Shown here piece after piece: positions 1,840-46,445 of a stretch of DNA of 48,732 bases. The DNA lies in assembly GCA_025357055.1 (NCBI GenBank), contig JANXPZ010000180.1, positions 1 through 48,732 of the forward strand, read 5' to 3'. Source of the stretch: Candidatus Eiseniibacteriota bacterium. GTDB lineage: Bacteria > Eisenbacteria > RBG-16-71-46. Under the pieces are notes generated by a model. It searched no databases, had not been told where the DNA came from, and worked only from the letters and a program-made list of their open reading frames with translations. Both the position numbers and the translations under genes were made by a program. Positions within the stretch are counted from its first letter, which is position 1. Every line of letters starts with the position of its first letter.

Positions 1840-2013
1840 GGCGTGAGTCTAGGCGATTGGCGGAGCTTTATCACGCCGGGCGGCAAGGCCCCCGATGCGG
1901 GGAGGCGGATGTCCAGCACGCCGGGCCACGCCAGGGCGGCGATCGCAGCGCAGGCGAGGGTGTAGCACGGGCGAAGGTTGCCGCAAGGGCCCGGGCGGGC
2001 TACGGTGACCATC

Positions 2014-3024
2014 ATGGTCCAGCATCCATCCGACTCGACGGAGGCCGCCCGCTTCGCCCTCGCCGTGCGCGCGCTGCGCAAGTATCGCGGGCGCGTGGCG
2101 CGCAAACTCGAGGCGCTGCAGAGCGACCTGGCCGAGGCCGAACGCGCGCCCCAGTTCCGGCGCTTCGGCGAGACCCTGCTCGTCTACCTCAGGCAGGTCC
2201 CCGCGCGCGCCGAGAACGTGGCGCTGCCCGATCCGGCCGAGCCCACGGTGACGCACGAGATCCCGCTCGAGCCCAAGCTCAACGCGCAGGGCAACGCCGC
2301 GCGCTACTTCAGGCGCGCCGCCAAGGCCCAGCGCGGGCTCAAGGCCGTCCCGCCGCGGCTCGGCGCCGTCGAGGCCGAACTGCACGCGCTCGAAGTGCTG
2401 ATCGAACGCGCGCGCCCCGCGCTGGAGCTGGCCGCGGAGGGGACGGCGACGGCGCTCGATCACGCGTTGATGCGCGCCGTCGAGGCGGCGCTCGCGAGAC
2501 TGCCCGAGACCGTGCGCGACAGCATCGGCGCGCCCGAGATCGCGAAGGCGCCCGGTGCCGCCGGCCCGCGCGGGCGCAACGCCGAGCCGCGGCCCGCCGC
2601 CGTCGCCGCCGGCGAGGAGCGCGCGCCGTCGGCGAAGCTGCAACCGCGGCGGCTGAAGACCACGGAAGGCTGGGACGTGCTGATCGGCCGCACCAGCGAG
2701 GGCAACGACTACCTGACGCACCGCCTGGCGCGGCCCGAGGACTACTGGTTCCACGTCAGCGGCGCGAGCGGCTCGCACGTGGTGCTGCGGCGCGGCAAGG
2801 GCAAGAACGAGCCGTCGAAGCAGACCCTCGAGGAAGTCGCCGCATGGGCCGCGTTCTACTCCCAGGCCCGCACCGCGGGCCGAGTGCCCGTCATCGTCAC
2901 GCAGAAGAAGTACGTGCGGAAGCCGCGCAAGGCGAAGGCGGGGCTGGCGCTGGTGGAGCGGGAGAAGTCGCTGATGGTGCGGCCGAGCGAGCCGGGGCCG
3001 GAGACGATGGAGAGCACCGACTGA
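2014..3024 (+). CDS. NFACT-R domain protein (short RqcH/Rqc2-like)
   Basis: The protein has 336 residues from ATG 2014; an in-frame GTG at 2005 is an alternative start. Residues about 221-325 match the NFACT-R (DUF814) domain: DVLIGRTSEGNDYLTH, then WFHVSGASGSHVVLR, then the closing block ALVEREKSLMVRP. Residues 1-210 are charged, Ala/Arg-rich and probably helical or coiled coil. In full RqcH proteins (about 550 residues or more) an NFACT-N domain comes first and helps bind stalled 50S-tRNA complexes during ribosome quality control. That domain is absent, and the upstream DNA is occupied by a gene on the other strand. The stop TGA (3022-3024) abuts the stop of the convergent DUF3883 gene. A second, displaced copy of its 3' end lies at 4663-4716. 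Family assignment is firm; whether it works in rescue of stalled ribosomes is inferred. Confidence 0.85.
   Translation: MVQHPSDSTEAARFALAVRALRKYRGRVARKLEALQSDLAEAERAPQFRRFGETLLVYLRQVPARAENVALPDPAEPTVTHEIPLEPKLNAQGNAARYFRRAAKAQRGLKAVPPRLGAVEAELHALEVLIERARPALELAAEGTATALDHALMRAVEAALARLPETVRDSIGAPEIAKAPGAAGPRGRNAEPRPAAVAAGEERAPSAKLQPRRLKTTEGWDVLIGRTSEGNDYLTHRLARPEDYWFHVSGASGSHVVLRRGKGKNEPSKQTLEEVAAWAAFYSQARTAGRVPVIVTQKKYVRKPRKAKAGLALVEREKSLMVRPSEPGPETMESTD
2943..2996 (+). repeat. 3' end of NFACT-R gene, resident copy of a direct repeat
   Basis: These 54 bases encode LALVEREKSLMVRPSEPG and match 4663-4716 at about 47 of 54 positions by hand alignment, in the same orientation. The two copies bracket the DUF3883 and PD-(D/E)XK-like genes. 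Confidence 0.75.
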
Positions 3025-3954
3025 TCAGAGGTTGGCGGTGTAGCTCCTAGGCTCGAGGCTACAGGATTCGCTCAGCGCCCCCGGCAGGACGAAGAAGTGA
3101 GGATCCCGCGCGAATTGGAACAGCCGGTAGAGGCGGTAGCGCTCGCGAGACTGCTCCGAGACCCTGACCTCATTCCTCGTGACGATGAAGGGGAAGCGAC
3201 GGTGGAGATTCGTCGTCTTCACCTCCACGAAGAGTTCCGCCCCTGACGGGTCGAATGAGTGGATGTCGTAGCCCGCCCCGTCACCGACGTCCTTCGAGAT
3301 CCAACGAACCTCCTTGACGAGGTCGTCGCGCCCCGCGAGAAGCAGTCGCTTCTTTTCCACCTCGAAGATGAATCTCTCTCCCAACTCACCGAGCTTCCGG
3401 TTGGCCGCATCCCGTTCGGCGTAGTTGTACCGGGCTGCCCTGGGCGATGGAACCACGTACCCGGGCGCCTTCTCCCGAACCACAGGGTCCGGCCTCGGAA
3501 CTTCGAGAGCCGGGTCTGCTTCGCGCCATGGTTGTTGCTGCGGCGGCGTCTCGTTGGAAATTCGCTCGACCTCACCGAGCAAAGGTCGCGAGACGGAGAG
3601 CCGCTCATGGACGACCTCCGTCAGGAGCGCCTGGTAGTTGCCGAGCGGCTTGTAGCCCTCGATGAACGGCAGGCCCGCATCGCTGAGGACGGCGCTGATG
3701 TTCATGTGCTTCCGCTCGACCGCGGAATCGGTGCGGCCACGCAGGAGCTGCAACAGGCGGCGGCGGTGGTCCGCCTTGCTGTACGGCTGCCCTCGGAGCT
3801 CCAGGGCAAGCATGTCGAGGTAGTCCTCGACCGTCGCCCGAACTTCGGCTTCGTCCCAGTCTCTGACGCTCAAGTCAGCGGCCCTCCGCGCGAGAGCATA
3901 CCCCAGAAGAACTGGATGTCGCCTGCTCCCGGTGGCCGTGTTTCCGGCGGCCAT
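3025..3954 (-). CDS. DUF3883 domain protein, predicted nuclease-fold defence gene
   Basis: From ATG 3954 the protein has 309 residues; longer frames reach 4089 but would run into the divergent gene starting at 4052. The N-terminal part (WDEAEVRATVEDYLDMLALE, then RKHMNISAVL and GLPFIEGYKPLGNYQALL) matches the module usually found ahead of DUF3883. The C-terminal third carries GYDIHSFDPSGAELFVEVKT, a PD-(D/E)XK-like D...ExK arrangement typical of DUF3883, a domain common in restriction and defence islands. Its stop (3025-3027) directly touches the stop of the NFACT-R gene, forming TGATCA. Codon use and GC look less extreme than in the neighbours, in line with transfer. No partner methylase or helicase is present. 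Family call good; exact start and target unknown. Confidence 0.8.
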   Translation of the reverse strand: MAAGNTATGSRRHPVLLGYALARRAADLSVRDWDEAEVRATVEDYLDMLALELRGQPYSKADHRRRLLQLLRGRTDSAVERKHMNISAVLSDAGLPFIEGYKPLGNYQALLTEVVHERLSVSRPLLGEVERISNETPPQQQPWREADPALEVPRPDPVVREKAPGYVVPSPRAARYNYAERDAANRKLGELGERFIFEVEKKRLLLAGRDDLVKEVRWISKDVGDGAGYDIHSFDPSGAELFVEVKTTNLHRRFPFIVTRNEVRVSEQSRERYRLYRLFQFARDPHFFVLPGALSESCSLEPRSYTANL

Positions 3955-4051
3955 GCCTGGCCTGCGCCGGCTCGGCAGGTTCGACCGCACGTCGGACTTG
4001 ATCTGAGCAACCCAGATCGGCGATCCTTTGACTCCACCCTCAAAGGACGCC

Positions 4052-4627
4052 ATGGCCGACAAGTTCAGCAAGAGTACGTCCAACGCCAAGACTCAGAAGA
4101 TCGGGCTCGGCATTCTCCTCGGCGACCCTCGGTTTCAATTGGTCGAGTTGGCTATGAAGCGCGCGATCCTCCACCAGGTGGCTCCGCGCGGGGAGTACGG
4201 ACACCAGTCCTTCGATTGTGTGATGACCCCGGATCCCGTCGAGCCTCTCACAGCCGACAACCTGCAAGCTCATCTCGCATCCTTGTGTCTCATCGAGATG
4301 AAGACGACGCAGAAACCCATCCGGAATGTCGGCCTGAACCAGTTCTTCTTTGGGGCAACCGCGAGAGAATTCGATCTTGCCCGAGCTCTCGGCGATCGCT
4401 TCCTCTTCGCCTTCGTGGTCTTGAACACGGCCAACGACTACGGCCGTCCGTTCGCGGTGCTGCTCACCTATGACCAGGTCGTCGAACGAACGCGCAGACA
4501 GCGCGTGCAGTTCCAGGTCAACTTTCGCTCGGACACTGATCCCGCCACTTCCCATCGCGAACTCGTCCTGTTCGACCCGGAGATTCTCGGACCAACAAGC
4601 GGCGGGCCAGACTCACGGGGCGTGTGA
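4052..4627 (+). CDS. PD-(D/E)XK-like nuclease-fold protein, unrecognised family
   Basis: The protein has 191 residues from ATG 4052, preceded by an AAAGGA ribosome-binding site 5 bases upstream (4042-4047). Residues about 50-95 contain FDCVMTPDP followed by LCLIEMKTT, a D...(E)xK spacing as in restriction-enzyme-like nucleases. This is followed by an aromatic block (LNQFFFGATAREFDLARALG) and a strand LFAFVVLNT, which fit the same alpha/beta fold. I do not recognise a named family. It is divergent from the DUF3883 gene with about 97 bases between starts, so the two probably share a control region and act together. Base composition is lower in GC than the surroundings. The nuclease call is by motif only. 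Confidence 0.6.
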   Translation: MADKFSKSTSNAKTQKIGLGILLGDPRFQLVELAMKRAILHQVAPRGEYGHQSFDCVMTPDPVEPLTADNLQAHLASLCLIEMKTTQKPIRNVGLNQFFFGATAREFDLARALGDRFLFAFVVLNTANDYGRPFAVLLTYDQVVERTRRQRVQFQVNFRSDTDPATSHRELVLFDPEILGPTSGGPDSRGV

Positions 4628-4662
4628 AGAGCCAATACCAGCGCTTGTAGGCCATGAGCTCG

Positions 4663-4716
4663 ATGGCGCTGGTCGAGCGGGAGAAGTCGGTGATGGTGCG
4701 GTCGGGGGAGCGGGGG
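4663..4716 (+). pseudogene. displaced 3' tail of an NFACT-R gene
   Basis: This stretch encodes MALVEREKSVMVRSGERG, matching the conserved last block of the NFACT-R gene at 2943-2996 (about 47/54 bases). There is no NFACT-R body in front of it and no stop in the equivalent place behind it. It is best read as a leftover gene end separated from its gene by the 3025-4662 insertion. It is not expected to be expressed as a protein. Confidence 0.75.
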
Positions 4717-4765
4717 GATGGGGCAATAGCCACGGAGGAACTGTTTCAGGGCAGATGGCTCTCGC

Positions 4766-5176
4766 TCACCTTGGCGGGCCGCCCCCTGGGTGCCACGGAT
4801 CCAAAGCATCAGCCGTGTAGTCCAGTCCGTACTTTTCGCGGAGCATCTTGCAGAGCTGCCTCGCGGTTTCTCCCGGGGGCTGGTGCGCCTCCCATCCGCG
4901 GTCCAGAACCTCTGGCCAAGCTTCCTCGACTCCTATCGACATGACTTCTCTCATGCCACGATCGACTTCATTCTCCCACGCCTTTCGCGGCCCCAGCCTG
5001 CGCAATTCGATCATTCTGCCAGCAACCTCGGAGCTATGGAGGCGTCTTTGCCAGCACTCGTCGATCAGATCGCGTAGCCGGCCGGCCGCATCGTTCTCGG
5101 GAAACACTTCTCCACTCCGCACAACGACAGCCCGAACCCGCAGTTCCCAGTCTGATCGGTCACGTAGTGGCGACAT
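4766..5176 (-). CDS. hypothetical protein in defence-like patch
   Basis: ATG 5176 is chosen over an in-frame GTG at 5215 because a GGAGG sits 6 bases before it. The product has 136 residues, is charged and predicted helical (RDLIDECWQRRLHSSEVAGR, ARQLCKMLREKYGL), with no signal peptide or membrane segment. I do not recognise the family. It is divergent from the HNH gene (start 5397) across a 220-base gap with an AT-richer core near 5370-5385 that could hold promoters. The neighbourhood suggests an accessory part of the restriction-like group, but nothing in the protein itself shows this. Confidence 0.55.
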   Translation of the reverse strand: MSPLRDRSDWELRVRAVVVRSGEVFPENDAAGRLRDLIDECWQRRLHSSEVAGRMIELRRLGPRKAWENEVDRGMREVMSIGVEEAWPEVLDRGWEAHQPPGETARQLCKMLREKYGLDYTADALDPWHPGGGPPR

Positions 5177-5396
5177 GACACCCTCCAGCCCTCGATCGAC
5201 TGCGTTTCGGCTCACGGCGCTCGAGCACGTCCCACAACTGCACCCAGCCGCTCATCGGCATGCAGACGGAGACCAGGGCACGCCCTGGAGCATCCGTATC
5301 CGGGCCAACGAGGTCTGGACCCAACCTGCCCTGGCGAATAGACTGAGTCAAGGAAACGCTGCGAATGCTTGTGACACATTGAATTGAGGCCGCACC

Positions 5397-6323
5397 GTGG
5401 ATGATCAAGGAATCGATGCAGCTGTAAGATCCCGGACCTTCGAGTTCCTTCAAGAACAGAGCAGGATTCATGGCGACGCTCTGCCGCGTGCCGTCCTGGT
5501 GCAGGGGTTCTCATTCCGCGACACCCGCGTCCCGCTCATGGGTCCGCAGGGAATCTTCAAACCCGCAATCCTCCCAGAAATTCCTCTTAGCATCACGACG
5601 GCGCCAATCGTGGAGGGCAAGCCGCGTCCCTATGAAGACGAGATGGGCACCGGCGGCCTGATCAAGTACAAGTACCGGGGCACCGATCCCCAGCATCGCG
5701 AGAACATCGGCCTCAGGCTCGCAATGCAACGCCAAGTCCCGCTCGTCTACTTCTACGGGCTAGAGCCGGGGCGCTATGTGGCCGAGTGGCCTGTCTTCAT
5801 CGTTGGTGATGACCCTGCATCGCTTTCCTTCACCGTCGCGGTTGACGAGAAGAAGGAGTTCCTGTTGGGCGGGGATCAGCTCGCCGATCGAGTCGCTGAG
5901 GGGCGTCGCCTCTACGTCACCGCTCAAGTGCAGCAGCGGCTGCATCAGCGCAGCTTCAGGGATCGGGTGCTGCGTGCCTATCGGGGCCATTGCTCGATTT
6001 GCCGACTCCGGCACTCGGAGCTCCTCGATGCCGCTCACATCCTGCCGGATGGCCACCCGAAGGGCGAGCCGTGGGTGTCGAATGGAATCGCGCTCTGCAA
6101 GCTCCACCACGCGGCCTTTGACAACAACATCCTGGGAATTAGGCCGGACCTCGTCATCGAAATCCGAAAGGACATCCTGGAGGAAATCGACGGCCCGATG
6201 CTGGCGCATGGGCTACAGGAACGGCACAACCAGAAGCTGCTGGTTGTACCCAAGCACCATGAGCTCAGGCCGCGTGAGGATTTTCTCGAGGAGCGTTACG
6301 AAGCGTTCCGGAAAGCGGTTTGA
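5397..6323 (+). CDS. HNH endonuclease, predicted restriction enzyme (COG3440-like)
   Basis: The protein has 308 residues from GTG 5397. Residues 1-160 hold a recognition-type domain seen in COG3440 predicted restriction endonucleases (GIFKPAILPEIPLSITTAP, PYEDEMGTGGLIKYKYRG, QVPLVYFYGLEPGRYVAEWP). Residues about 190-245 are an HNH domain: CSIC zinc pair, DAAHILP with the catalytic His, SNGIALCKLHH with Asn and the second metal group, then AFDNN. Enzymes of this form are thought to cut incoming, often modified, DNA without a cognate methylase. No methylase is encoded here, in line with a stand-alone type IV-like role. The stop is 14 bases from the convergent selB stop. Base composition is lower in GC than selB, supporting acquisition. 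Confidence 0.85.
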   Translation: MDDQGIDAAVRSRTFEFLQEQSRIHGDALPRAVLVQGFSFRDTRVPLMGPQGIFKPAILPEIPLSITTAPIVEGKPRPYEDEMGTGGLIKYKYRGTDPQHRENIGLRLAMQRQVPLVYFYGLEPGRYVAEWPVFIVGDDPASLSFTVAVDEKKEFLLGGDQLADRVAEGRRLYVTAQVQQRLHQRSFRDRVLRAYRGHCSICRLRHSELLDAAHILPDGHPKGEPWVSNGIALCKLHHAAFDNNILGIRPDLVIEIRKDILEEIDGPMLAHGLQERHNQKLLVVPKHHELRPREDFLEERYEAFRKAV

Positions 6324-6337
6324 GGACCGTCCTCCCC

Positions 6338-8248
<1,911 letters not shown>

Positions 8249-9954: not shown

Positions 9955-9974
9955 GCGGACGACAGCCCGCCGCT

Positions 9975-10048
9975 CTACGCCCGCCCGCGCTCCCGCCCCC
10001 GTTCGAAGGCGGTCACGCCGGGGGCGAAGTCCTCGCGCACGAAACCGT
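9975..10048 (-). repeat. displaced 3' tail of the methyltransferase gene (direct repeat copy A)
   Basis: This 74-base segment matches 10703-10776 at 72 positions in the same orientation, offset 728. Read on the minus strand it encodes GFVREDFAPGVTAFERGRER and then GRA plus the TAG stop, identical in protein to the end of the intact methyltransferase. Both base differences are third-position synonymous changes (GGT/GGC, GAA/GAG). There is no methyltransferase body attached. Confidence 0.93.
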
Positions 10049-10074
10049 CGTGGCCAACACCGACTGGACGGCAC

Positions 10075-10090
10075 ATACCCATACTGGTAT
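10075..10090. promoter_or_regulatory. ATACC-N6-GGTAT dyad ahead of toxin-antitoxin remnant
   Basis: An inverted repeat with arms ATACC and GGTAT lies in an unusually AT-rich patch (10070-10100) upstream of the toxin remnant and XRE gene. Antitoxins of this type usually repress their own promoter through such dyads. The assignment as operator is inferred from position. Confidence 0.4.
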
Positions 10091-10114
10091 ATTTCCCATG
10101 TGTCGGGGCCGCGG

Positions 10115-10240
10115 AAGCTCCAGTCGACCCGCGGTGTCGCGACGCCACTTCGTCACCTGGCCGTGATCAAACAGCGACTCCAGGCTGCCAGACGACTCGA
10201 CGAGAAAGGCGACCATGAAACGCGCCAGAAGAACGCGTGA
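10115..10240 (+). pseudogene. C-terminal remnant of a RelE/HigB-type (Gp49-like) toxin
   Basis: In the frame ending at TGA 10238-10240 the translation contains STRGVATPLRHLAVIKQRLQ followed by AARRLDEKG. This resembles the conserved tail of phage-derived Gp49-like/COG4679 toxins (usually ...KKS.RG.ATP..d..lI..RL..A). A whole toxin has about 100-115 residues; only about 41 codons remain, and no start or N-terminal sequence exists between 10048 and 10115. The remnant overlaps the XRE start (10215) by 26 bases, the usual toxin-first arrangement. The family call is by eye from a short tail and is only moderately secure. Confidence 0.55.
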
Positions 10241-10778
10241 CCATGTCGTAAGTTCCGGAAACGTCTTCCGGGACCTGGGACTCCCCAACCCGGAAGAGGA
10301 GCTCACGAAGTCGTCGTTGCTTCTCGAGATCCACCGGACCATCAAGGGAAGGGGCCTGAAGCAGACCGACGCAGCGCGGATCCTCGGGATTCCCCAGCCT
10401 CAGGTTTCGAACTTGCTTCGCGGACGAACCACGGGGTTCTCCGTGCAGAGGCTTTCGCTTCTCCTCGGCAAGCTCGGCAAGAGCGTGACCATCGTGGTAT
10501 CGGACGAGCCGCCCCCGGCGGGGCCGCTGCAGATCCCCGTGGTCCGTGACTCCGCAGGGTTGATCGGGCGAATGACGAGGGTGCGGGTCGCGGCGGATGA
10601 GCAACCAGCGGCGGGCTACTCTGTCGCTCGTGGGCGGACGTCCGCCACTACGGCAAGGGCGAAGAAGAGCAGCGTTCAGAAGAAGGCGACGAACCCGGCC
10701 CCCTACGCCCGCCCGCGCTCCCGCCCCCGCTCGAAGGCGGTCACGCCGGGGGCGAAGTCCTCGCGCACGAAGCCGTAG
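10215..10778 (+). CDS. XRE-family antitoxin/regulator (HigA-like), with aberrant C-terminus
   Basis: A 187-residue frame from ATG 10215. Residues about 35-95 form a helix-turn-helix typical of COG5606 antitoxins (GLKQTDAARILGIPQPQVSN then LLRGRTTGFSVQRLSLLLG and VTIVV). The rest is low-complexity and basic. The final ~25 residues, from about 10703, are encoded by the antisense of the methyltransferase 3' end, and the stop (10776-10778) lies inside that gene. The natural stop therefore appears to have been lost at the cassette junction, or the whole tail is non-native. With the toxin truncated it looks like an orphan antitoxin, perhaps kept as a regulator or simply decaying. Confidence 0.8.
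   Translation: MKRARRTRDHVVSSGNVFRDLGLPNPEEELTKSSLLLEIHRTIKGRGLKQTDAARILGIPQPQVSNLLRGRTTGFSVQRLSLLLGKLGKSVTIVVSDEPPPAGPLQIPVVRDSAGLIGRMTRVRVAADEQPAAGYSVARGRTSATTARAKKSSVQKKATNPAPYARPRSRPRSKAVTPGAKSSRTKP
10703..10776 (-). repeat. direct repeat copy B, intact end of methyltransferase gene
   Basis: This partner of 9975-10048 (72/74 identical) starts exactly at the TAG stop of the methyltransferase. The 654 bases between the two copies carry the toxin remnant and XRE gene. Confidence 0.93.
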
Positions 10779-11320
10779 AGCCCGCAGTGCACCAGCCCGG
10801 CCGCGTGGAACTGGCGGTCGTAGAACGCGGGGCTGCGGCGCTTCATCTCGTGGAAATCGCCGGCGATGGAATCATCGCGGGTGAAGAGCTCGATCCAGGC
10901 CATGCCCTCGAGCAGGCCCGCGAGCACGCGCAGGCCGCGGCGCAACTCGCCCGCGGGCACGTAGTGCAGCACATCGGCGCAGACGATCAGGTCGAAGGGC
11001 CCCTCGAGACCGAGCGCGCCCAGTCCGCCGAAGTCGCCGAGCCGCAGGTTGCGGCGGCGCCCGTAGAGCTCGACCGCGTATTCGCTCGAGTCCACGCCGA
11101 CGTAGCGCAGGCCGGGCCGCAGCCGCGCGAGGATGGGCTGCCACGGTCCCTCTCCGCAGCCGACGTCGAGCACGCTGCGCACCGGGCGCTGGATCAGGTA
11201 CTCGGCCGCCGCGAGCGCGAGGCGCACCTTGCGCTCGACCATGACGCCGACGTGGATGCGGGTGCCGGGGTCGCGATACCAGCGCTCGAAGTAGTCGCGG
11301 TCGTAGCGCTTGGGCGGCAT
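10703..11320 (-). CDS. class I SAM-dependent methyltransferase
   Basis: From ATG 11320 the product has 205 residues; longer open frames upstream look non-coding. Motif I is SVLDVGCGEGPW, motif II region RYVGVDSSEYAV, and motif IV-like FDLIVCADVLHYVP, all typical of Rossmann-fold methyltransferases acting on small molecules. The N-terminus (RYDRDYFERWYRDPGTRIH) resembles ubiE/tellurite-type enzymes without naming a substrate. It follows murA on the same strand with a 65-base gap. The last 25 codons overlap the XRE frame on the other strand, and the last 74 bases are duplicated at 9975-10048. Confidence 0.85.
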   Translation of the reverse strand: MPPKRYDRDYFERWYRDPGTRIHVGVMVERKVRLALAAAEYLIQRPVRSVLDVGCGEGPWQPILARLRPGLRYVGVDSSEYAVELYGRRRNLRLGDFGGLGALGLEGPFDLIVCADVLHYVPAGELRRGLRVLAGLLEGMAWIELFTRDDSIAGDFHEMKRRSPAFYDRQFHAAGLVHCGLYGFVREDFAPGVTAFERGRERGRA

Positions 11321-11385
11321 GGCGGGCGGGGGCGCGGAGCGGCGGGCGGCGCGGCCTCCGGGGACCGGGGCCGCGCGGCGCGCGA

Positions 11386-12648
<1,263 letters not shown>

Positions 12649-20874: not shown

Positions 20875-23800
20875 CTACCGCCCGCCGAGCCAGACCAGCC
20901 GGCGCGTGAGTCTCGCGGCACCGACCGCGGCCCGCACCGTGTAGACGCCGGGAGCCAGCCCCTCCGGCCGCCACTCCCGCATCACCCGCCCCGCCGCGAA
21001 CTTCTCCCCCGCGATCGGCCGCGCCACCTCGCGCCCCGCCACGTCGAACACGCTCACCGTCACCACGCTCCGGTTCGCGAGCTCGATCCCCAGCCGGACC
21101 ACGCCGAACGCAGGGTTCGGCCACGGCGCCCGCAACTGCAGCGCCGACGTCCCCGGCCCCACGCTGGTCGCCACCTGGATGGTGAAGTCCGCGTCACTCA
21201 GGTCGCGGCCGCTCGTCCATACGTCGCGGGGCATCGCCTTCACCCGCGCCTGGGTCGTGGTGAGGTTGGGCACCGTCACCTCGACGGCGTTCGATTCCGC
21301 GCCACCCACGCCACTCTCGAGCCGCTCGTAGGTGACCCCGCCGTCCAGCGACAGCCACAGGTCAGCCGGCTCCGCGCCCAGCCACGAGACGGCCTCGGTG
21401 GCGTTGCTGGCCCAGGTCTCGCCGCCGTTGGGTGACGTCACGAAGTAGCGATTGAAGTCGAACACGTACGCCGCCCCGGATTGCGACGCGCCCAGGTCGC
21501 TGTACGGGGCGCCCACGATCACGTCCGGGAACCCGTCGCCGAACACGTCCCCGGCCGCACCGACCGACGTGCCGAAGGCGTCGTTCGTCGAGGCGCCGAG
21601 CAGCGTCACGTCCGCCACCGTGTCGGCGCTCACGCCGCCGTAGAAGACGTACGCCGCTCCGGCCGTGGACCCGCCGGTGTCGTTGTAGTAGGCGCCCACG
21701 ATCACGTCGGAATAGCCGTCGTCGTTTACGTCGCCGGCCGTCCCCACGCTGTGACCGAACTCGTCGCCGGCCGCCACGCCCGGCAGGGCGAGGTCCGCGA
21801 CCGCATCGGCGGTCGCGCCCCCCCGGAAGACGTAGGCCCGGCCGATGTTGAGCCCCCCCACGTCGCTCAGGGGCGCGCCCACGATCACGTCGGCGTAGCC
21901 GTCCCCGTTCATGTCCCCGGCCGTCCCCACGGAGAGGCCGAAGTAGTCCGCCGGCGACTCGCCATACATCGTCAGGTCCGCGATGGCGTCCGGGCTGACG
22001 CCGCCGTAGAAGACGTAGGCCGCGCCGGCGTCCGGCCCGGAGGCGTCGTTGTTCGGGGCGCCGACGATCACGTCGTCGTAGCCGTCCTTGTTCACGTCGC
22101 CGGCCGTCCCCACCGAGATGCCGAAGTTGTCGCTGGCGGCGAGGCCGGTCAGCGTCCAGTCCGGCAGCTTGTGAGGGGTCGCGCCTCCGAAGTAGACGTA
22201 CGCCCGGCCGGCGGTGGTCCCGCCCGCGTCGTTGTAGCGCGCGCCGACGATGATGTCGTCGTAGCCGTCGTTATTCACGTCGCCGGCCGTTCCCACCGAG
22301 CAGCCGAACAGGTCGTTCGTCGCAGCGCCGGTCAGCACGAGGTCCGCGGCCGCGTCGGGGGTCGCGCCGCCGTAGTACAGATAAGCCGCTCCGGCATCCA
22401 CGCCGGCCGCGTCGTTCTGCATCGCGCCGACGATGAAGTCGTCGTAGCCGTCGCCGTTCACGTCGCCGGCCGTCCCCACCGAGATACCGAAGTAGTCGTA
22501 GGCCGCGGCGCCGGTCATGGTGAGGTCCGGGATCGAGTCCGCGCCGGGGCCGCCGAAGTAGACGTAGGCCCGGCCGGCGTAGGTGCCGCCGGTATCGTTC
22601 ATGTATTCGCCGACGATCAGGTCGGCGTAGCCGTCCCCGTTCACGTCCCCGGCCGTCCCGACGGCGTTGCCCAGCCGGCCGAGCACGTCGGTGTCCGTGA
22701 AGGTCAGCGCCACCCGGTGCGCCGCCGCCGGTGGCGGGCCCAGGTCGCAGACGTAGGCTGCGCCGGCGTTGCCCCCGTTCGCATCGTTGTACGGGGCGCC
22801 GGCGATGATGTCGTGGTAGCCGTCCCCGTCCACGTCGCCGGCCGTCTGCGCCGAATACCCGAACGCATCACCCGCCGCCAGCCCGGTCAGCGTCAGGTCG
22901 GCCACCCCGTCGAGGCCCGGACCGCCGAAGAAGATGTAGACCGCCCCTGCGTCCGTCGCGCACGCGTCGTTGTAGGGCGCACTAACGATCAAGTCGTCAT
23001 GGCCGTCGTGGTTCACGTCCCCGGCCGTGCCCACCGACAGGCCGAAGAGATCACCCGCCGCCCGACCGGTCAGGACCAGGTCCGCGACCGCGTTCGGGCT
23101 CGCGCCACCGAAGTAGAGATAGGCCCGGCCGGCATCCGTGCCCGCCGCGTCGTTGTATGCGGCCCCGACGATCACGTCGTCGTAGCCGTCCTCGTTCACG
23201 TCCCCCGCGCTCCCCACCGCGCAGCCGAACTGGTCACCCGCGGCTGCACCCGTCAGCGTCAGGTCCGCGACCGCGTCGGGGCTCGCGCCGCCGAAGAAGA
23301 CATAGGCCCTGCCAGCGTTCGTGCCCGCGGCATCGTTGAGCGTGGCGCCCACGATCACGTCGCCGTAGCCGTCCCCGTTCACGTCCCCCGCCGCTCCGAC
23401 GCGGTTCCCGAACCGGTCGCCCGCGGCCGCGCCCGTCAGCGTCAGGTCCGCGACCGCGTCCGCACCCGGGCCGCCGAAGAAGACATAGGCCCTGCCGGCA
23501 TCCACCCCGGCCGCATCATTCGCGCTCGCGCCGACGATGACATCGTCATAGCCGTCGCCGTTCACGTCACCGGCCGTCCCGACGGAGACGCCGAAATTGT
23601 CGCCCGCCGCCGCGCCGGTGAACACCAGGTCCGCGACCCCGTCCGCGCCCGGGCCCCCGAAGTACACGTACGCCCTTCCCGCGTTCAGCCCGCCCGCGTC
23701 GTTCTGGGACGCGCCGACGATCAAGTCGGCAAAGCCGTCTCCGTTCACGTCCCCGGCCGTCGCCACGGAGATGCCGAACACGTCGCCCGCCGCCGCGCCC

Positions 23801-24108
23801 AAGAGAGTCAGGTCCGCCACCGCGTCGGCCGCGGGGCCCCCGAAGTAGACGTAGGCAGCGCCGGCGTTGGTCCCCACCACGTCATTGAAAGGAGCGCCTG
23901 CGATCACGTCGGCATAGCCGTCCCCGTTGACATCCCCGGCAGGAGCGACGGACCAGCCCAGGAAGTCGGCGCCCGCGACACCCGTCGGCGCGATGATGGT
24001 GGGGAGCGCTTCCGCCCGGGCGATGCCCGGGATCAGGGACGCGAGGAGGATGAGGAGGCCCGCCGGCGGGAGCCAGGCGGGGAGACGGAACACACGGATG
24101 CGAAACAT
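20875..24108 (-). CDS. giant secreted FG-GAP repeat protein with FlgD-Ig/type IX-like C-terminus
   Basis: A 1077-residue product from ATG 24108 (GGAGGGG 5 bases upstream). Residues ~10-32 are a signal peptide. I count 14 repeats of about 60 residues built on AGDVNGDGYADVIVGAPYND, the Dx(D/N)xDG calcium loop of FG-GAP (integrin-type) repeats, followed by AGAAYVYFGG.. strands. A break after repeat 7 (DLGPPPAAAHRV) suggests two seven-bladed propellers. The C-terminal ~90 residues (PWPNPAFGVVRLGIEL..VSVFDVAGREVA..APGVYTVRA) match FlgD-Ig/type IX secretion sorting domains. It probably sits on the cell surface as an adhesin-like protein, held by calcium. A PorV/PorQ-like protein is at 43981-44922. 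It lies between rho and rpmE, an unusual place. Confidence 0.9.
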   Translation of the reverse strand: MFRIRVFRLPAWLPPAGLLILLASLIPGIARAEALPTIIAPTGVAGADFLGWSVAPAGDVNGDGYADVIAGAPFNDVVGTNAGAAYVYFGGPAADAVADLTLLGAAAGDVFGISVATAGDVNGDGFADLIVGASQNDAGGLNAGRAYVYFGGPGADGVADLVFTGAAAGDNFGVSVGTAGDVNGDGYDDVIVGASANDAAGVDAGRAYVFFGGPGADAVADLTLTGAAAGDRFGNRVGAAGDVNGDGYGDVIVGATLNDAAGTNAGRAYVFFGGASPDAVADLTLTGAAAGDQFGCAVGSAGDVNEDGYDDVIVGAAYNDAAGTDAGRAYLYFGGASPNAVADLVLTGRAAGDLFGLSVGTAGDVNHDGHDDLIVSAPYNDACATDAGAVYIFFGGPGLDGVADLTLTGLAAGDAFGYSAQTAGDVDGDGYHDIIAGAPYNDANGGNAGAAYVCDLGPPPAAAHRVALTFTDTDVLGRLGNAVGTAGDVNGDGYADLIVGEYMNDTGGTYAGRAYVYFGGPGADSIPDLTMTGAAAYDYFGISVGTAGDVNGDGYDDFIVGAMQNDAAGVDAGAAYLYYGGATPDAAADLVLTGAATNDLFGCSVGTAGDVNNDGYDDIIVGARYNDAGGTTAGRAYVYFGGATPHKLPDWTLTGLAASDNFGISVGTAGDVNKDGYDDVIVGAPNNDASGPDAGAAYVFYGGVSPDAIADLTMYGESPADYFGLSVGTAGDMNGDGYADVIVGAPLSDVGGLNIGRAYVFRGGATADAVADLALPGVAAGDEFGHSVGTAGDVNDDGYSDVIVGAYYNDTGGSTAGAAYVFYGGVSADTVADVTLLGASTNDAFGTSVGAAGDVFGDGFPDVIVGAPYSDLGASQSGAAYVFDFNRYFVTSPNGGETWASNATEAVSWLGAEPADLWLSLDGGVTYERLESGVGGAESNAVEVTVPNLTTTQARVKAMPRDVWTSGRDLSDADFTIQVATSVGPGTSALQLRAPWPNPAFGVVRLGIELANRSVVTVSVFDVAGREVARPIAGEKFAAGRVMREWRPEGLAPGVYTVRAAVGAARLTRRLVWLGGR

Positions 24109-45047: not shown

Positions 45048-46445
45048 TCAGCCCCTGCCGCGACGCTCGCCGCCCGATCCCCGATCCGAGTCGCCCCGCG
45101 GGGGCGCGGGACGCGGCGCCGGGCTGCTCGGCGGCGGTGACGAGGGCCGCTCGCCCTCACTCGGGCGCTCGTACTTCGGCGGCGGTGACGAGGGTCGCGG
45201 GCCTTCGCTCGGACGCTCGTACTTCGGCGGCGGTGACGAGGGCCGCGCCCCCTCGCGCGGGCGATCGTACCTCGGCGCCGGTGACGAGGGCCGCGCTCCT
45301 TCGCGCGGGCGATCGTAGCCTCCACCCCCATCGGACCCCGGGCGCCCCCCGGGCCCCCAGGTCTCTCCCGGCCGGCTCGACGGGCCGGGCCGGGCGCCGC
45401 CCTCCAGCTGCCTGCCCTGCACCGGCTCCCGCACACTCGGGCGGTTCGCCCCGATCGGCACGCGCAGGCGCACGCCGTCCGGGCCTCTCACGTACTCGCC
45501 GGCCAGGAAGCCCGGCGGCAGCGGTTTGCCTTCCTTCCAGCGCGACCCGTCGTAGCGACTCGGCGGCGTGTAGCCCGGGGGCGGCGCCGTCTTGTGACGC
45601 GTGAGATGGCCGCTCCACAGCGCGTTCCACTGCCGCCGGCCGTTCCACGACGAGTAGTAGGGCCGGTCGTAGGGCGCGCAGGGATAGCAGCGAGGCACGT
45701 AACAGAAGTAGGGCACGGTGCCGAACCAGTAGCGCGGTCCCCAGCTCCAGCCCCAGTAGACGCGGAAGTCGAACGCCGAGCAGCTCGTGTAGTAGGGATC
45801 GTAGCCATCCCACCACGCCCACTGGTTGGGGCGGTGGCAGTCGTTGCAGAGGTAGCGCGGGTAGCGCACGGGCTGGTGGATGTAATACGACGTGTAGGCC
45901 GTGGCGAAGATCTCGGGGTCGTTCGCATCGCTCAGCACCTGCCGGCGGATGCGCTCCATGGCCACGAACGGGTCGCCCATGATGCGGCCATCCGAGGTCA
46001 CGTCCTCCTCGTCCTGCTCCTCTCCCACGTAACCCGCTCCCTCGGCCTGCGGATCGTAGGGACGCAGGAAGCGGGGCAGGGCGTTGAACGGCTCGCGGGA
46101 GACGAGGGCCACGATGTAGCCCTGTCCCACGGGCCCCTGCACGACGAGCTGCAGACCCGACTTGTACGGCGGCACCCGGTAGGTCTGCCGGCCCGCGATG
46201 TAACCGCTGCTCCCCTCGTAGGGATACAGCACGCGCACGTAGCCCTCCGAGTCGATGTCGTAGACCAGCAGGTAGCCGTCATCGGAGGCGCGCACCTTGA
46301 TCTCGACCGGCTCGCCCGGCTCGTACACCGCGTCCTTGCCCCGATCGGTCCAGATGTCCACCCCCACCGCCCGCGCCCGAGCCGCGGGCGGGGCGAGGAC
46401 GAGCCCGATCATGAGGGCACCAAGAAGCCACCGCACTCGGAACAT
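45048..46445 (-). CDS. secreted DUF4384-like protein with CxxCH motif and Pro-rich repeats
   Basis: A 465-residue product from ATG 46445, two bases after the stop of the preceding gene. Signal peptide residues 1-28. Residues ~30-130 resemble DUF4384 (VDIWTDRG..YEPGEPVEIKVRASDDGYLLVYDID..VRVLYP). The middle is very rich in Tyr, Trp and Cys, with one CxxCH (LCNDCHRPNQWAWWDGYDPY) and further Cys (SCSAFDF, CYVPRCYPCAPYD). The C-terminal ~110 residues are basic, disordered, with four 15-residue repeats (YDRPREGARPSSPAP type). The domain call is good; whether heme or zinc is bound is unknown. Confidence 0.8.
   Translation of the reverse strand: MFRVRWLLGALMIGLVLAPPAARARAVGVDIWTDRGKDAVYEPGEPVEIKVRASDDGYLLVYDIDSEGYVRVLYPYEGSSGYIAGRQTYRVPPYKSGLQLVVQGPVGQGYIVALVSREPFNALPRFLRPYDPQAEGAGYVGEEQDEEDVTSDGRIMGDPFVAMERIRRQVLSDANDPEIFATAYTSYYIHQPVRYPRYLCNDCHRPNQWAWWDGYDPYYTSCSAFDFRVYWGWSWGPRYWFGTVPYFCYVPRCYPCAPYDRPYYSSWNGRRQWNALWSGHLTRHKTAPPPGYTPPSRYDGSRWKEGKPLPPGFLAGEYVRGPDGVRLRVPIGANRPSVREPVQGRQLEGGARPGPSSRPGETWGPGGRPGSDGGGGYDRPREGARPSSPAPRYDRPREGARPSSPPPKYERPSEGPRPSSPPPKYERPSEGERPSSPPPSSPAPRPAPPRGDSDRGSGGERRGRG
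45127..45318 (-). repeat. four 45-bp in-frame tandem repeats
   Basis: A period of 45 bases encodes Y-(D/E)-R-P-(R/S)-EG-x-RPSSP-x-P. The array lies near the 3' end of the DUF4384-like gene and is likely variable in copy number. Confidence 0.8.

Follow-up and report, generated by a model that had tools for sequence, protein, structure and literature searches.

An orphan copy of the tail of an NFACT-R gene lies downstream of the intact gene, on the far side of a candidate defence gene and an orphan gene, in the window analysed here (the whole stretch of 48,732 nt, positions 1 to 48,732 of contig JANXPZ010000180.1, assembly GCA_025357055.1, Candidatus Eiseniibacteriota bacterium). We read this copy, with a probability of roughly 0.55, as the scar of a recombination anchored in a core gene, that is, homology-facilitated illegitimate recombination (HFIR), at a site of gene turnover. 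Most likely the finding is an ordinary trace of gene turnover, with no new mobile element involved.

The NFACT-R gene (1978–3024, plus strand) is intact, with the NFACT middle domain and the NFACT-R RNA-binding domain (Pfam PF05833, 7e-18, and PF05670, 2e-12, respectively), and its orthologues in family relatives are 53–66% identical. The repeated part of its conserved 3' region, tail A, reads LALVEREKSLMVRPSEPG at positions 2944–2997 and is matched in frame at 47 of 54 bases by MALVEREKSVMVRSGERG at 4663–4716, also on the plus strand (tail B). The pairwise alignment was ungapped over 2945–2997 and 4664–4716, with 47/53 identical bases and a score of 76, compared to 29 for the best other match of the tail query in the window. 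The whole-genome search recovered tail B with E = 5.2e-13 and placed the tail sequence at two sites only, and a chance match was rejected on these values. The edges of the repeat were abrupt: identity per 10 bases was 3–5 before it, mostly 9 within it and 2–6 after it. Searches of the window with the NFACT-R protein or DNA matched the gene and the 53-base piece only, with no further NFACT-R sequence near 4663, and a remnant of a paralogue around that position was rejected on this ground. The initial annotation had described a repeat of about 47/54 in the same orientation and without a gene body, and had named a chance match and a paralogue remnant as the alternatives; the repeat was borne out and neither alternative held. 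Its coordinates were right for 4663–4716 and one base off for the first copy, given as 2943–2996.

Two genes occupy the space between the tails. The first (3025–3873, minus strand) encodes a DUF3883 protein, and its stop (3025–3027) abuts that of NFACT-R (3022–3024), as had been noted. It belongs by profile to the candidate single-gene phage-defence family PDC-S36 (PADLOC, 4.3e-99; Pfam NOV_C, 4e-21), nearly the full model being covered (positions 5–278 of 280). The start of the gene is uncertain, as the open frame extends to 4089, and the defence function of this member is a putative one. Relatives of the DUF3883 protein were present on 1203 plasmid records, nearly all at less than 60% identity. 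The second gene (4052–4627, plus strand) encodes a 191-aa orphan protein, possibly a PD-(D/E)XK nuclease to judge from its FDC..IEMKTT motif. It had no match in Pfam, NCBIfam or PDB, a weak hint of similarity to NOV_C (E = 0.21), no relative in 384 other genomes and none among viral or plasmid sequences; its predicted structure had a pLDDT of 35, too low for fold assignment. From the coordinates of the two divergent genes, the segment 3874–4051 would be a shared divergent promoter region. The presence of this divergent orphan neighbour, which was not found in the other genomes searched, sets the locus apart from other PDC-S36 genes. The G+C content was approximately 60–65% from 2900 to 6300, versus 70–75% outside. 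The family names proposed initially were confirmed for NFACT_N/NFACT-R and for DUF3883, which is Pfam NOV_C; for the PD-(D/E)XK-like gene, the name comes from the IEMKTT-type motif only.

The two tails were compared with the NFACT-R tails of 14 relatives. These were identical to A or B at 29–43 of 54 positions, and A and B were the best match of each other. The same value of 47/54 was observed between the tails of two different genera (G002 and G007), and two genomes of a single genus (G013 and G016) reached 49/54. This makes unsafe the earlier suggestion that the lower identity in this pair indicates an older event, all the more so as the continuations past the repeat do not match. At the seven sites where the tails differ, tail B agrees with the commonest base of the relatives at two (2955 and 2986) and has a common base at 2971, and tail A holds the commonest base at others. 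Two prolines (4702 and 4712) that are invariant in the 14 relatives are broken in tail B alone. Because these prolines are lost, tail B is a decaying, noncoding fragment with a history separate from that of A.

Beyond the repeat, tail A continues as PETMESTD followed by the stop, and tail B as DGAIATEE, with no match between them (BLOSUM sum of −3 over 7 residues). Each continuation is weakly like the C-termini of relatives, in a test that is itself weak (approximately 0.02 per tail, best of 14; 2.3% of random 9-mers score as well). The DNA match of tail B to G007 extends to 4735, the limit of its weak family-like similarity, and its next residues are weakly like the NFACT-R ends of other relatives and unlike the end of the window gene; this speaks against a plain duplication of the target site. 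This is modest evidence that the ends of two related genes fit the tails better than one copied end would, and the tails may derive from two chromosomes, having differed from the outset. A transposase-like insertion that copied about 53 bases of NFACT-R, with later divergence, would explain why the repeat is sharply bounded on either side. Target duplications made by transposases are usually far shorter than this. In addition, tail A runs into a family-like C-terminus and a stop, which is not expected of the end of an element, and a comparison for terminal inverted repeats gave nothing prominent. The locus thus departs from a transposon with target-site duplication, the copies being 53 bases long and diverged and A continuing as a gene end, and we give such an origin a very small probability.

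The region downstream of tail B leads to SelB, the conserved far flank of a variable interval (6338–8248, minus strand; identity 66% in G001, 57% in G012). Tail B is adjoined by a 149-aa open frame of unassigned function (4766–5215, minus strand; no family at E <= 0.1), followed by a gene for a McrA-like HNH endonuclease (5397–6323, plus strand; Pfam HNH_2 1e-8, PADLOC HNH 1.7e-18, NF045808 1.6e-16), which resembles restriction enzymes for phosphorothioate DNA (PT-DNA) with a score under the curated cut-off. The family relatives compared were metagenome-assembled genomes (MAGs) of Candidatus Eisenbacteria, all from genera other than that of the window. In G001, a member of another genus, NFACT-R is followed by a phosphatase-like gene, then by HNH (55% identical) and SelB. 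The arrangement of NFACT-R followed at a distance by HNH and SelB is therefore common to G001 and the window, and the segment 3025–4662 is extra in the window. In G012, the end of SelB is 1.7 kb behind NFACT-R. Elsewhere, the gene behind NFACT-R is a radical SAM gene (G002) or a SpoIIE gene (G007), and an MqsR/MqsA toxin–antitoxin pair is directly behind it in G018 (L044, 3905–4670). Since the genes behind NFACT-R change from one relative to the next, the stretch from there to SelB is a site of gene turnover that includes defence and toxin–antitoxin genes. A second tail behind NFACT-R was seen in none of the 14 relatives.

PDC-S36 was present in 2 of 47 genomes of the phylum, that of the window and G003, a different genus, where it lies approximately 1 kb behind NFACT-R in the same orientation as in the window (L041, 5572–6441). 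The window protein is 44% identical to that of G003 and 45% identical to one from an enterobacterial plasmid; a small DUF3883 tree grouped the window and G003 weakly (0.81). With the G003 protein no closer than the plasmid one, a prior presence of the family at the site can be argued either way, and PDC-S36 may have reached it once or twice.

We propose the following model for the origin of tail B. Tails A and B would each stem from the end of an NFACT-R gene, one on each of two related chromosomes. DNA of a related Eisenbacterium would have entered the cell by transformation or in some other way; the genome has a ComEC-type competence gene, which makes DNA uptake by the organism plausible. 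This fragment would have paired with the resident chromosome via a conserved core gene, namely NFACT-R if it was the cassette that arrived, and SelB/HNH if it was the downstream block. Its other end would have been joined, with no homology involved, at the border of the NFACT-R tail in the other copy. The expected product is the NFACT-R body with tail A, then PDC-S36 and the orphan gene, tail B, other accessory genes and SelB. As NFACT-R was kept intact, the event would have been tolerated, leaving tail B noncoding and free to decay. In its anatomy the locus is compatible with such a scar (a homologous anchor, a non-homologous junction and a partial gene copy), the donor and the parental junctions being hypothetical. 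We infer both the route of recombination and the direction of transfer, and either side of the repeat may be foreign, the cassette or the downstream block. The HFIR reading is favoured because A and B are about as alike as orthologues of different genera or of one genus, and because the contig has no tyrosine or serine recombinase match and the tail is not reused in the genome. Of the initial description of a defence-like pair inserted at the NFACT-R stop, the extra genes relative to G001, the lower G+C, the PDC-S36 assignment and the orphan tail stand; that the pair is one mobile unit, or was placed at the stop by a dedicated mechanism, would be conjecture. The term "displaced tail" assumes that the cassette is the newcomer, and the mirror case, with tail B and the downstream genes arriving, may apply instead.

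Two other routes would also give diverged tails. In a Campbell-type insertion, a circular molecule (a plasmid or an excised circle) bearing an NFACT-R tail and the cassette would have entered through one crossover within that tail. The same gene order with two diverged tails would result, and PDC-S36 is common on plasmids, but the 1.6-kb insert holds no replication or mobilisation gene and 53 bases of homology is short for RecA; we consider this route quite improbable. An assembly artefact, with contigs of two strains joined in a metagenome-assembled genome, is very unlikely. The assembly comprises 234 contigs, the relatives in the family are MAGs and the tails do look like two orthologues, but a false join at a repeat would merge the repeat and not leave two copies 1.7 kb apart, and two such joins in one contig would be needed.

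The second case in question is located 7 kb away. An orphan methyltransferase tail (9966–10048, minus strand) repeats the tail (10694–10776, minus strand) of an intact methyltransferase gene (open frame 10703–11713), with 94% identity across an 83-base match (whole-genome E = 1e-30). A gene for an XRE/HTH_37 antitoxin-like protein lies between them (10218–10604, plus strand; Pfam HTH_37, 3e-24). Its frame continues to 10778, antisense into the methyltransferase end, and its toxin partner is seemingly missing or truncated. The geometry is that of the NFACT-R case, as the initial annotation had stated, and the tails of the two cases are unrelated in sequence. No junction motif common to both was found in the same orientation; one reverse-complement score, among 12 comparisons, was just above the shuffles (25 versus 19). 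Two cases at this distance suggest a recurrent process. In both, the tails begin about 75–80 bases before the stop, and these similar lengths hint at a more specific process, which counts against the scar reading. Eisenbacteria could, for example, host tiny integrase-free units that insert at the last 75–80 bases of protein genes, bringing a replacement end and defence or toxin–antitoxin cargo; we regard this as most improbable.

A survey of gene tails repeated downstream was made over approximately 875 kb of the genome itself and three relatives; gene calls were crude and the remaining hits were inspected in part, so that the counts do not represent a rate. Many matches traced to genes of repetitive sequence. 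Within the first 278 kb of the genome itself, among the repeats listed, the two window cases alone showed the orphan-tail geometry. A third repeat pair was rejected as an orphan tail, as it consisted of integron attC-like repeats flanking a HicB/HicA-like pair (L058 in G000:C8, 402–480 and 1441–1520, 81% over approximately 80 bases); these repeats suggest that the source genome has a chromosomal array of integron cassettes. Elsewhere in the window, an array of a 183-base repeat (21435–23998, 12 placed copies) lies inside a long open frame, and 48-base tandem repeats, 86% alike, are present at 45128–45317.

The arrangement at NFACT-R also resembles that of genomic islands (IME or CIME) that integrate at protein-gene 3' ends and replace the tail, so that an intact end on one side faces a directly repeated orphan tail on the far side. 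The segment could be the remnant of a small element of this kind, mobilised in trans by a tyrosine recombinase that uses the NFACT-R 3' end as its attachment site, with tail A brought as the replacement and the native tail B left at the far end. The restored gene end, the direct repeat of about 53 bases, the defence cargo and the like geometry at 9966–10776 agree with this origin, as do the 13 tyrosine recombinase domain matches elsewhere in the genome, where 3 serine recombinase matches also lie. However, the window contig has no match to either family (PF00589, PF00239), the cargo is tiny, and neither an integrase gene nor a reused attachment site marks the locus, the tail being in the genome twice only and behind NFACT-R in 0 of 14 relatives as a second copy. 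The two cases moreover share no same-orientation junction motif and have unrelated tails. We consider this origin unlikely.

The HFIR reading has a parallel in Vibrio cholerae T6SS arrays and Rhs loci, where homology-facilitated illegitimate recombination was proposed for shifted 3' ends (PMC5361080). In the T6SS arrays, which also contain orphan immunity genes, an incoming module likewise uses conserved upstream sequence as its anchor, and the previous 3' part ends up downstream of it; that part belongs to a diversifying toxin–immunity module, whereas here it is the nearly conserved tail of a housekeeping gene, with defence-like cargo. In hotspots that lack mobile elements, recombination is raised at the flanking core genes (PMC5635113). 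The present site resembles them in its accessory genes between conserved genes, the lack of an integrase and a content that varies between lineages, and differs in that their clean double crossover leaves no partial gene copy. The orphan tail would be a still legible record of the gain and loss of defence genes behind a housekeeping gene, with no mobile-element enzyme taking part. Should the geometry recur across the phylum, past insertions and their donors could be mapped from orphan gene tails in genomes for which metagenomes are the only source.
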